The translations under genes and the position numbers were made by a program. The notes under the pieces are model-generated. The model searched no databases. It was not told the DNA's origin and was given only the letters and a program-made list of their open reading frames with translations. DNA of 64,000 bases from Pelagibacteraceae bacterium AG-426-I15 (GTDB lineage Bacteria > Pseudomonadota > Alphaproteobacteria > Pelagibacterales > Pelagibacteraceae): positions 124,001-188,000 of the forward strand of contig QCNT01000001.1 of NCBI GenBank assembly GCA_003213135.1, given 5' to 3'. Each line of letters begins with the position of its first letter. Within the stretch, counting starts at the first letter, position 1. Of this stretch, positions 10,354 to 14,500 are shown in pieces.

Positions 10354-11406
10354 CTATTTCGGTTCCTGCTGAGTCAAGCAATGAATTGTTCCAAAGCCCC
10401 ATACTAAAACTGAACTATCTATTAGAACAACTTGCCTATTTTTAAAATGTTTTCTAAATATTTTCAAAACAATTTTATCTTTTGGATCATTAAATGATGG
10501 AACAAGAACAATTTTATTAGCAATATAAAAATTAAGATAACTTGCAGGTAGCCGAATACCATCCATAAACTTCGGCTTAGGCATAGGTACATAAATAATT
10601 TTAAATTTTTCTTCATTTTTTCTCTTAAATTTTTTAATTATTTCAATATTCTCTTTTAAATTTTTGAAATTTTTATCTTTTTTATTTTTTTCTGTTGCCA
10701 TGAATATTTTGTTTTTACCCACAAACCTTGCTATATCATCCACATGTCCATGCGTATCATCTCCCTGTATCCCCTTATTAAGCCATATTATTTTTCTTGT
10801 TCCAAAAAATTTATTAAAAATTTTATTGTAGTCATTCTTTTTAAATCCCTTATTCCTTTGTTGAACTTTACTCAATAGACATTGCATAGTAGTTAAAATA
10901 AGACCGCTTCCATTAACATCAATAGAACCACCCTCAAGAACAATTTTCTTTTTTCTATATTTTGGTTTTATAACTTTAAATTTTTTAGATTTATTTACCT
11001 TCAAAAAAGCTTTATTGTCATTTTTAAAATTTTTGTATTTTGCCCAACCATTAAATTCCCATTTAGATAGTATGTTTCTTTTCATTCTATCTTTAACAAA
11101 TATCGGTAAAAAATCCCTTGTCCAAGCTCTATCAGTTTTGCAGATTAAAAGTCTTATATTTTTAATTTTGGCACCAGAAACTCTTAGAAACAATTTTGCT
11201 TTTTTTAAGTCGACCTTATCTTTGACTAAAATATTGACTGATTGAACTTTTGAAAGTTTAGTAATTATTTTGCTAAAAACCCATGGTATTTCACTAAATT
11301 TACCTGGCCAATCCATATGATTGTGGGGCCATGCTATCCAGGTTGACTTCTGCGGCTCCCACTCTGCAGGCATCCTATACATGCCATTTACTTCCTTACT
11401 AGGCAT
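10354..11406 (-). CDS. aguA: AguA-type agmatine deiminase
   Basis: A 350-aa guanidino-group hydrolase of the peptidyl-arginine-deiminase/agmatine-deiminase fold, converting agmatine to N-carbamoylputrescine plus ammonia. Seen: N-terminal MPAEWEPQKSTWIAWPHN, the substrate motif WTRDFLP, EGGSIDVNG, the catalytic His region GDDTHGHVDDIARF, and the C-terminal catalytic Cys in GFGTIHCLTQQEP. It is last in a four-gene leftward polyamine cluster and overlaps aguB by 8 bases. Its stop abuts the regB stop with no spacer. The nearby aguB makes agmatine the most likely substrate. Confidence 0.93.
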   Translation of the reverse strand: MPSKEVNGMYRMPAEWEPQKSTWIAWPHNHMDWPGKFSEIPWVFSKIITKLSKVQSVNILVKDKVDLKKAKLFLRVSGAKIKNIRLLICKTDRAWTRDFLPIFVKDRMKRNILSKWEFNGWAKYKNFKNDNKAFLKVNKSKKFKVIKPKYRKKKIVLEGGSIDVNGSGLILTTMQCLLSKVQQRNKGFKKNDYNKIFNKFFGTRKIIWLNKGIQGDDTHGHVDDIARFVGKNKIFMATEKNKKDKNFKNLKENIEIIKKFKRKNEEKFKIIYVPMPKPKFMDGIRLPASYLNFYIANKIVLVPSFNDPKDKIVLKIFRKHFKNRQVVLIDSSVLVWGFGTIHCLTQQEPK

Positions 11407-12274
11407 CTCTAGGGTTGCTTAATATGCCTTTATAATAGTCAATTCTTCTATCTCTAAAAAAAGGCCAATGTCTTCTTACATTTTCAACTTTTTTAAAATC
11501 AATATCACAAATTAAAACTTTCTCATTTTGTTTGGCGCTAGCAATTATATTACCACTCGGATCAAAAACAGTAGTGTTTCCCCAAAATTCTAATTTTTTA
11601 GAGCCCTGTCTTTCGACCCCAACCCTGTTAACAGCCGCAACATAAACCCCGTTTGCTATCGCATGCGCCCTTTGTATTGATATCCAAGAATTAAGTTGAG
11701 ATTTTCCAAATTTCTTTTTTTCCTTCGGGTGCCAGCCAATCGCAGTTGGATAAAAGAGTATTTCTGCACCTTGTAAGGAAGTTAGTCTTGCTGCCTCTGG
11801 AAACCATTGATCCCAACAAATTAGAGTTCCAACTTTACCATAATTAGTTTTAAAGGATCTAAACCCAAGATCACCAGGAGTAAAATAAAATTTTTCATAA
11901 TATTGAGGATCATCTGGTATGTGCATTTTTCTATATTTTCCAATTATTTTACCTTTTTCATTAATCACCACTAAGCTGTTATGATATATACCAGCAGTTT
12001 TTTTCTCAAAAATTGGCAAAATAATTACGATTTTTAGCTCTTTGGCTAATGAAGAAAAAATTTTTGTTGTTTTTCCCGGTATCTTCTCTGCTAAATTAAA
12101 ATTTGAGTGTTTTTCTTTTTGGCAAAAATAATTTGATAAAAATAATTCTGGCAAACAAACTATTTTGGCTCTCTTTTTACTGGCTTCTTTTATTTTTTTA
12201 ATAGCGGAACTCATATTTTTTTGAGTTTCAGACGACATCTTCATCTGTATAAGAGCTATTTTTGTTTTTGTCAT
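11399..12274 (-). CDS. aguB: AguB-type N-carbamoylputrescine amidohydrolase
   Basis: Carbon-nitrogen hydrolase (nitrilase superfamily) converting N-carbamoylputrescine to putrescine, CO2 and ammonia. The Glu-Lys-Cys triad is visible: Glu in CLPELFLSNYF, Lys in YRKMHIPDDPQYYEKFYF and Cys in GTLICWDQWFPE. The track ORF begins 25 codons too early at 12349 and would overlap the upstream gene by 71 bases. I use the ATG at 12274 (MTKTKIALIQ), which fits the family start and lies 4 bases after that gene's stop. Length is then 291 aa, as expected. It overlaps aguA by 8 bases, so the two steps are translated together. Confidence 0.93.
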   Translation of the reverse strand: MTKTKIALIQMKMSSETQKNMSSAIKKIKEASKKRAKIVCLPELFLSNYFCQKEKHSNFNLAEKIPGKTTKIFSSLAKELKIVIILPIFEKKTAGIYHNSLVVINEKGKIIGKYRKMHIPDDPQYYEKFYFTPGDLGFRSFKTNYGKVGTLICWDQWFPEAARLTSLQGAEILFYPTAIGWHPKEKKKFGKSQLNSWISIQRAHAIANGVYVAAVNRVGVERQGSKKLEFWGNTTVFDPSGNIIASAKQNEKVLICDIDFKKVENVRRHWPFFRDRRIDYYKGILSNPRDA

Positions 12275-12278
12275 TTTA

Positions 12279-13322
12279 CTAAAATAATTTTTGGAAATTT
12301 CTTCTTTCCCTATTTTTCCAATTTTGACGGTGATATGCATCACTAGCAATTAAGGGCAAAACGCTAGTAGCCTCCGCAAAAACCATTTGTTCTTTTGTAG
12401 TATCCACCTTTCCCCAAGAACTTGCTTCTTTTAAAGTTGAACTACTGCATGCGCCATCCCTTGTATCTGCAACAGTTATTTGTATTGCGTATTTATGCAT
12501 ATCAACTTTTTTACCTAAAAGTTCAGCACAAACAACTGTATCTTGAACAAAGTTTTTTGGGACTCCACCACCTACCATCAATAAACCAGATGAATTCGAT
12601 TTAAGCTTTATTTCTGTGAGCTCCCTAAATTCTCTAACAGAGTCAATCGTGATATGTTTACTGGGATTTTGTTCTTGATGCATTACAAGTCCAAAACCAG
12701 CTGAACTATCGGTAAAAGCAGGACAAAAAATAGGAACATTGTTATCGTAAGCTAATTCAATCAAGGAGCCTTTTTTCTTTGCGTTTTTCTTTAAATATTT
12801 CCCCATTTCTTTTATGAATTCCCTTGAAGTGTAGGATTTAGGAGGCAAAGCATTTGCTATTTCACATATCTTTTTATCACATGCTTGTAATTGCTCCTCA
12901 TCGATATAAGTATCATATATTCTGTCTATATAGTTCTCTCTCAATATTTTATCGTCTTGAAACTGATTACCTTGATAATGTTTAAAACCTAAAGCCTCAA
13001 AAAAATCCATATCAACTATAGAAGCTCCAGTAGCTACAATAGCATCAACCATGTTGTATTTGACCAAATCAGAATAGAGTTGCATACACCCCCCAGCTGA
13101 TGTTGAACCAGCAATTGTTAAAAATATAGAACAATTTTTATCCCTTATCATTTCATTATATATTTCAGCAGCTTTAGCAGTATCCCTAGATGTAAATGAC
13201 ATCTTATTCATGGACTCTATTATTTTTCTCGCGTCAAAAGACGTTATGTCTATATGCTTTACTTCAGATTTTAAAAGGGAATTTTTATTATGTCCTAAGG
13301 ATGGACCTTTTTTTTTATTCAT
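12279..13322 (-). CDS. Deoxyhypusine-synthase-like aminobutyl/aminopropyl transferase (homospermidine synthase candidate)
   Basis: A 347-aa NAD-dependent enzyme of the deoxyhypusine synthase (DHS) family. Bacteria lack eIF5A, the substrate of true DHS; bacterial relatives are proposed or shown to make polyamines such as sym-homospermidine. Seen: the NAD-binding stretches LTIAGSTSAGGCMQLYSDLV and VATGASIVDMDFFEAL, PIFCPAFTDSSAGF, and SSWGKV, where the Lys corresponds to the catalytic Lys that forms the imine intermediate in DHS. So it is probably active. It lies between a basic amino acid decarboxylase (1-base overlap) and aguB (4-base gap), which ties it to putrescine metabolism. Product unproven; homospermidine from putrescine is my leading guess, with an agmatine-derived adduct as alternative. 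Confidence 0.85.
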   Translation of the reverse strand: MNKKKGPSLGHNKNSLLKSEVKHIDITSFDARKIIESMNKMSFTSRDTAKAAEIYNEMIRDKNCSIFLTIAGSTSAGGCMQLYSDLVKYNMVDAIVATGASIVDMDFFEALGFKHYQGNQFQDDKILRENYIDRIYDTYIDEEQLQACDKKICEIANALPPKSYTSREFIKEMGKYLKKNAKKKGSLIELAYDNNVPIFCPAFTDSSAGFGLVMHQEQNPSKHITIDSVREFRELTEIKLKSNSSGLLMVGGGVPKNFVQDTVVCAELLGKKVDMHKYAIQITVADTRDGACSSSTLKEASSWGKVDTTKEQMVFAEATSVLPLIASDAYHRQNWKNRERRNFQKLF

Positions 13323-14500
13323 TAAGCAACCAAGTAATTGACTTTATCTTTACGATCGTACATCGAAAGAATAGGTTTGTCATCTACTTGATAAATCGCA
13401 TCTGAATAAAAACCATTAAATTTTGTTCTAAAAGTTGTTCCGTATGCTCCAAGCTGACCAAGTTCGATATAATCGCCCTCTTTTATATTGTTTGGAAGAA
13501 GAAAAGGCCCCTTCATATAGTCAAGACTATCACAAGTAGGACCATAAAAATTAAACGCAGTTAGTTTTTTAGAAAGAGCTCTACCATTTTTTATCATTCT
13601 TGATGGCAATACAAAGTTTGGAACTCCTGCATCGAATAAAGATCCATAGGTTCCATCATTAATATATAACTTATTTTTTTTACGTAATAAAACTCTAACA
13701 ATTGTTGATCCAGCTTCAGCTACAAGTGCACGGCCGGGTTCACAATATATCTCTGGCATTTTCTCTAATTTTAATTTTTTAAGACTTTCATTAATTTCAC
13801 TCATATAATTTTCTAACGGCTCAGGTATAAGGTCTGGATATACAGAAGGAAATCCACCCCCGATATTAATTACATCTGGATTAATCTTTGTTTTTTTAAT
13901 TATATTACCAATTTCAGAGATCCCTTTTGAAAAGGAAATTTTATGCATACATTGGGATCCTACATGAAAACTTAGACCAACTTTTTTACCATGTTCTTTA
14001 CATAATCTTAGAAGCCCTAAAGCCTCGCTTGGCGAAGCCCCAAATTTTCTTGAAAGATCAATTTCTGCATGTTCATTAGACACAGCTGTTCTTACATATA
14101 AATTTAAATCTTTAGCATTACCTGTTGCCTCCAGAATTTTGAGTAATTCATCCTTACTGTCCAGAGCAAAATCTTTAACATTATATTGATAATATGCCTC
14201 CCTAATACTTTCTTTACTTTTAACTGTATGCATAAAATAAATTTTTACTTTATCATCAATTTTTTTAATTAGTTTTATTTCATTAATCGAAGCCACATCG
14301 AAATTATTTATTCCATTATTAATAATGATTTTAATTATTTTTTCCTGAGGATTTGTCTTTACTGCGTAAAGGACTCTGCCAGGAAAATTATTTTTGAAAA
14401 ATTCCACCGACTTTTTTATTGAGTTAGGTCTGATGCAATAGACCGGATTTTCAGGTTTTAAAGTATTGATTAACTCGTCAACACCACCAAATTTTCGCAT
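13322..14500 (-). CDS. Ornithine/lysine/arginine-type PLP decarboxylase (fold III)
   Basis: A 392-aa alanine-racemase-fold (group IV) decarboxylase. Seen: the PLP Lys in YAVKTNP, the His/Arg barrel segments (SFHVGSQC), the phosphate-binding GGGFPSVYPD, CEPGRALVAEAGS and the active-site Cys loop YGPTCDSLDYM. The GPTCDSxD form is typical of eukaryotic-like ornithine decarboxylases and lysine/ornithine decarboxylases. It heads the leftward polyamine operon; a GGGGGA stretch 13 bases upstream of the ATG may be the ribosome site. Neighbouring agmatine deiminase would need agmatine, so arginine is a possible substrate alongside ornithine. Substrate cannot be settled by reading. Confidence 0.88.
   Translation of the reverse strand: MRKFGGVDELINTLKPENPVYCIRPNSIKKSVEFFKNNFPGRVLYAVKTNPQEKIIKIIINNGINNFDVASINEIKLIKKIDDKVKIYFMHTVKSKESIREAYYQYNVKDFALDSKDELLKILEATGNAKDLNLYVRTAVSNEHAEIDLSRKFGASPSEALGLLRLCKEHGKKVGLSFHVGSQCMHKISFSKGISEIGNIIKKTKINPDVINIGGGFPSVYPDLIPEPLENYMSEINESLKKLKLEKMPEIYCEPGRALVAEAGSTIVRVLLRKKNKLYINDGTYGSLFDAGVPNFVLPSRMIKNGRALSKKLTAFNFYGPTCDSLDYMKGPFLLPNNIKEGDYIELGQLGAYGTTFRTKFNGFYSDAIYQVDDKPILSMYDRKDKVNYLVA

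Follow-up and report, generated by a model that had tools for sequence, protein, structure and literature searches.

The locus raises the question of what a SAR11 bacterium makes with an operon that contains a homologue of deoxyhypusine synthase (DHS), and in which order the enzymes of this operon act. It lies in a window of 64,000 nucleotides (positions 124,001 to 188,000 of contig QCNT01000001.1, Pelagibacteraceae bacterium AG-426-I15). The four genes for ADC, the DHS-like enzyme, AguB and AguA are read from the minus strand between 14500 and 10354 and overlap or abut, with spacings of -1, +4 and -8 bases in the order of transcription. Gene order, direction and spacing had been given correctly in the preliminary description (four leftward genes, spaced -8 to +4 bases), and the Pfam matches agree with the assignments. 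The features are as follows:

13322..14500, minus strand: ADC, short decarboxylase of the alanine-racemase fold (ODC-like), 392 aa; PF02784 5e-39, PF00278
12279..13322, minus strand: DHS-like enzyme of the CdmS type, predicted NAD-dependent 1,9-bis(guanidino)-5-azanonane synthase, 347 aa; PF01916 6.5e-97, NF002699
12693..12695, minus strand: codon of F210 in the DHS-like gene, replacing D243 of human DHS as in CdmS (F204)
12408..12410, minus strand: codon of the catalytic lysine K305 in the DHS-like gene, aligned with K329 of human DHS
11399..12274, minus strand: AguB, carbon-nitrogen hydrolase of the N-carbamoylputrescine amidase type, 291 aa; PF00795 6e-65
10354..11406, minus strand: AguA, agmatine-deiminase family, 350 aa; PF04371 6e-105
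10354..12278, minus strand: exchangeable slot, occupied by AguB-AguA here, whereas roughly half of the relatives have one SpeB (agmatinase family) instead, from the gene neighbourhoods of the relatives

The operon is flanked on one side by gyrB-regB-like genes and on the other by a regA-like gene and bioY, a setting which is kept in many relatives. The stop codon of aguA directly abuts that of the convergent regB-like gene (10353/10354, zero spacer). No regulatory RNA was matched around the operon in Rfam at the gathering threshold. The closest loci stem from Pelagibacteraceae (SAR11) single-cell genomes, with an identity of the DHS-like protein of at most 92%. We analyzed two samples, namely 80 SAR11 loci and a second set of 148 family genomes that was drawn separately. 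ADC is the upstream neighbour of the DHS-like gene in all 80 loci. In the genome draw the DHS-like gene was found 141 times and lies above the family cut-off in 140 of the 148 genomes; the operon is therefore not a chance arrangement.

The first enzyme is a fold III decarboxylase near LODC/ODC, as judged from Pfam, from the alignment to LODC and from its best PDB relatives, which are lysine/ornithine decarboxylases and an ODC-like arginine decarboxylase of a chlorovirus. In the alignment to LODC the substrate-binding aspartate of ODC is replaced by proline, and the ADC proteins examined have the stretch NDGxYG(S/A)LFDA in common. Two SAR11 homologues, from Pelagibacter and Fonsibacter, have been assayed and used arginine and neither ornithine nor lysine (PMC9992855). 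By analogy, ADC of this genome is predicted to be an arginine decarboxylase yielding agmatine. The earlier view of a polyamine operon that starts from arginine was thus right.

The second enzyme, the DHS-like protein, scores 578.7 bits with the caldomycin synthase model NF002699 (cut-off 500; 578.9 bits in the genome search) and only 186 bits with NF001980, the SpeY-type 'homospermidine biosynthesis protein' (cut-off 450); with those DHS models that it matched it stays below the cut-offs. A haloarchaeal DHS reaches only 134 bits with NF002699, so the three control genomes above the cut-off of this model are presumably bacteria, Thermus included. For Thermus CdmS seven residues of the agmatine site were proposed, S67, E136, D143, F204, L286, E293 and K299, on the basis of a docking model and not of mutants (PMC10981699). 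At a constant offset of +6 the DHS-like protein has S73, E142, D149, F210, C292, E299 and K305, hence six of the seven published CdmS positions are identical and L286 is a cysteine. The same columns in human DHS are N106, N173, E180, D243, D316, E323 and K329. At the five positions where CdmS and human DHS differ (N106, N173, E180, D243, D316) the DHS-like protein follows CdmS four times and is non-acidic at the fifth, and the archaeal DHS compared there do not match the CdmS residues. The protein thus lacks the two substrate-site aspartates of true DHS and keeps the two acidic residues proposed for the second agmatine. The pocket residues are invariant among 29 SAR11 proteins and nearly so in alphaproteobacterial relatives, one of which has methionine in place of F210. 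These residues, although indirect, are our main evidence that the DHS-like enzyme may couple agmatine in the manner of CdmS. A structure model of the protein (pLDDT 71, pTM 0.76) has DHS structures as its first matches; we did not use it for the pocket argument, as the active-site segments 252-273 and 285-319 are of low confidence. A divergent alphaproteobacterial DHS paralogue (L136, G304:C6, 6016-6981) is nearest to NF001980, far under the cut-off, and most CdmS residues are absent from it.

The two remaining enzymes belong to the expected families. The open reading frame of AguB opens at TTG 12349, but ATG 12274, which gives a protein of 291 aa and the gap of 4 bases, is the likelier start. 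Its Glu-Lys-Cys motifs are kept (residues 40-45, 113-118 and 151-157, counted from this ATG), and so are the Asp/Glu/His/Cys motifs of the family in AguA. While PF00795 and PF04371 are clearly matched, AguB reaches 307.3 bits with TIGR03381 (cut-off 410.25) and AguA 222.8 bits with TIGR03380 (cut-off 381.8). Scores below these agmatine-specific NCBIfam cut-offs would fit a substrate other than agmatine or a wider range of substrates, though they are no proof of either. AguA is closer to the PDB deiminase 1xkn (294 bits) than to the alphaproteobacterial AguA proteins encoded near CdmS-type genes (130-147 bits), and may therefore have an origin separate from the latter.

We also searched the genome for other polyamine genes. 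It encodes a SpeD-SpeE fusion of 346 aa (L138, G000:C2, 1848-2888), which stands apart from the operon and would supply spermidine. The fusion gene adjoins genes resembling methionine salvage. The preliminary description had named a separate spermidine pathway, together with a protein substrate of the DHS-like enzyme, as an argument against its reading; with the fusion the former half of this argument is in place. One further fold III decarboxylase is LysA-like, and no arginase-family gene was found in the assembly, which is about 88% complete. For this last reason we discarded the idea that an agmatinase at another locus makes AguA and AguB redundant. With LysA as the only other fold III decarboxylase and no arginase-family gene, agmatine is the expected precursor, and the SpeD-SpeE fusion makes it a branch point.

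What follows ADC-DHS differs between relatives, a point missed in the preliminary description. In the 80 SAR11 loci the slot holds AguB-AguA 33 times (in three of these the end of the contig cuts off AguA) and a single SpeB-type ureohydrolase 47 times; both versions together, or neither, were not seen in any of the 80. The slot SpeB passes the agmatinase model TIGR01230 (197 bits, cut-off 174). The genome draw gives the same picture. Judged by position, AguA adjoins the DHS-like gene in 70 and SpeB in 69 of the 141 genomes; of the two genomes with neither, one has AguB followed by the end of the contig and in the other the contig stops inside the DHS gene. Among the 140 readable slots there are thus 71 with Agu genes, 69 with SpeB and none with both; a step that removes guanidino groups is thus never missing, and the AguB-AguA pair is interchangeable with SpeB. 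In this draw, no AguA was found away from the slot in genomes without slot AguA. The fragmented genome G414 has two extra AguA copies on other contigs. Some genomes have a second, distant arginase-family gene elsewhere (about 26% identical in one example); in many genomes of the Pelagibacteraceae genus g3 such a second gene scores about 318 bits and is unlinked to the operon.

The slot has changed hands repeatedly. On a tree of ADC and DHS from 85 SAR11 rows (quick method, LG+G4) parsimony requires at least 12 changes of the slot state, and the starred branches alone force eight. In ADC+DHS protein the Agu loci L063 and L067 reach 97-98% identity with the SpeB locus L065. A DNA identity of 92% between L063 and L065 extends almost to the end of the DHS gene, with only its final bases affected, and resumes just past the slot, with unrelated genes in between; the breakpoints are clean and lie at gene ends. 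In L037 AguA is nearest to the clade of the window, yet ADC-DHS is nearest to the SpeB genome L015, whose SpeB in turn is nearest to that of L007, a member of the window's clade. These patterns would fit homologous recombination within the conserved flanking sequences as the means by which the slot is exchanged.

CdmS-type genes are not confined to the family. NF002699 was matched in 26 of 385 genomes of the class, 23 times above the cut-off. Of 18 alphaproteobacterial CdmS-type genes outside the family, 14 have the same type of ADC directly beside them and two more within 4 kb (in all 16 within 6 kb); SpeB is adjacent to nine of the 18 and AguA/AguB are close to three. Other surroundings occur as well. 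In L123 (G010:C5, 5932-9378) a CdmS-type DHS is followed, instead of ADC and SpeB/Agu, by dehydrogenase-like and decarboxylase-like reading frames which by eye resemble carboxyspermidine dehydrogenase and decarboxylase. On Trichormus variabilis plasmid A (L112, 4539-7041) and Nostoc edaphicum pNe_5 (L141, 3497-6041) a CdmS-type DHS comes right after rocD among genes for the transport of iron and siderophores, and an adjacent arginine decarboxylase is lacking; the Trichormus protein has 592 bits with NF002699. No copies of the DHS-like gene were found in annotated phages or viral contigs.

We suggest, with reasonable though not high confidence, that the product of the operon is sym-homospermidine, formed from arginine by coupling first and trimming later. 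The ODC-like ADC would convert arginine to agmatine, as assayed for the two SAR11 homologues. The DHS-like enzyme with NAD would then move the guanidinobutyl group of one agmatine, via a lysine-imine intermediate, onto another, giving 1,9-bis(guanidino)-5-azanonane (caldomycin); this reaction was shown for the Thermus homologue, and for the SAR11 enzyme the family score and the residues of the active site predict it. Finally AguA would deiminate both guanidino ends and AguB strip both carbamoyl groups, leaving homospermidine. In Thermus SpeB performs the step equivalent to the slot, from caldomycin to homospermidine (PMC10981699). The same AguA/AguB pair probably also makes putrescine for SpeD-SpeE; alternatively SpeE may take agmatine directly, like its Thermus counterpart. 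That the DHS-like enzyme modifies agmatine and AguA/AguB trim the product had been listed earlier as the second choice and is now the favoured one.

The first choice at that time, in which arginine is converted via agmatine and N-carbamoylputrescine to putrescine and the DHS-like enzyme, as SpeY, joins two putrescines to homospermidine, is the main competitor, and we now regard it as unlikely. AguA and AguB are named for exactly these steps. It is also the published assignment: the passages of Li et al. 2023 (PMC9992855) that deal with the cluster already show ADC-DHS in both Pelagibacter and Fonsibacter, accompanied by an arginase/agmatinase homologue or by AIH and NCPAH, and DHS is called SpeY and assumed, not assayed, to make homospermidine from putrescine. 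The genes, their order and both slot versions are the same as here, whereas those passages say nothing of a recurrent exchange at the slot. Anabaena SpeA-SpeB-SpeY likewise leads from arginine to homospermidine via a DHS homologue, and SpeY is reported there as a putrescine user (Burnat et al. 2018, as cited in later papers). The same four enzyme types were proposed for this conversion in Zymomonas (ZMO1020/ZMO1019 and ZMO1369/1370), in two separate operons and again with putrescine coupling assumed (PMC8594446). The content of the slot cannot decide on the order of reactions, because SpeB or AguA/AguB would be needed with putrescine coupling too. What speaks against it is the second enzyme itself. 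The DHS-like protein belongs to the CdmS model and lies far below the cut-off of the SpeY-type one, and it has the CdmS pocket. Thermus CdmS uses agmatine only, left putrescine untouched and shares no more than 33% identity with the DHS, HSS and SpeY enzymes compared (Kobayashi et al. 2024, PMC10981699).

Two further roles of the DHS-like enzyme appear much less probable. It could be a general aminobutyl transferase which breaks down or remodels imported spermidine and norspermidine. Promiscuity is possible in DHS enzymes, and this role was one possibility raised by Noell et al. 2021 (PMC8437039) for dys2, the DHS gene that they noted in two SAR11 strains in culture. However, that study preferred SpeE over Dys2 for the breakdown of spermidine, CdmS does not act on spermidine (PMC10981699), and the gene is firmly tied to that for arginine decarboxylase in one operon; we consider this role very unlikely. 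Hardly any weight can be given to a protein-modifying deoxyhypusine synthase with some bacterial protein as substrate. The fold is the same and the catalytic lysine, noted earlier in the motif SSWGKV, is indeed kept (K305), but D243, D316 and H288 of human DHS are F210, C292 and N257, the scores with the matched DHS models stay below the cut-offs and the gene is surrounded by a small-molecule pathway. The earlier proposal of a DHS homologue with a role other than hypusine formation is upheld by these replacements and scores.

The agmatine-first route differs from the caldomycin pathway of Thermus thermophilus (CdmS and SpeB), which it resembles in an agmatine-coupling DHS homologue with matching pocket and in the subsequent guanidino removal, in that this genome would use a deiminase and an amidase in place of one ureohydrolase; phylum and lifestyle differ as well. 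As native polyamines of SAR11, both spermidine and homospermidine were reported for HTCC1062, but only spermidine for untreated HTCC7211; homospermidine production was judged low, and guanidino-polyamines were not among the compounds sought (PMC8437039). In the literature searched we found no paper connecting CdmS with SAR11, no report of AguA/AguB acting on a bis-guanidino triamine and no description of a recurrent Agu/SpeB swap at one slot. The operon itself is thus already published, and what is revised is probably the order of its reactions.

SAR11 bacteria are among the most abundant cells of the ocean, and a large share of their nitrogen economy consists of taking up and turning over polyamines. 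We think it somewhat probable that SAR11 homospermidine arises via a bis-guanidino triamine, with the Agu pair trimming both ends in half of the lineage and at least eight swaps of the slot with a ureohydrolase. Should the coupling of agmatine come first, the intermediate would have escaped standard polyamine assays and the published polyamine maps of SAR11 would be misordered. The slot offers a clear natural example of the repeated non-homologous replacement of one strongly retained pathway step, and it is useful for asking why streamlined genomes alternate between one gene and two for this task.
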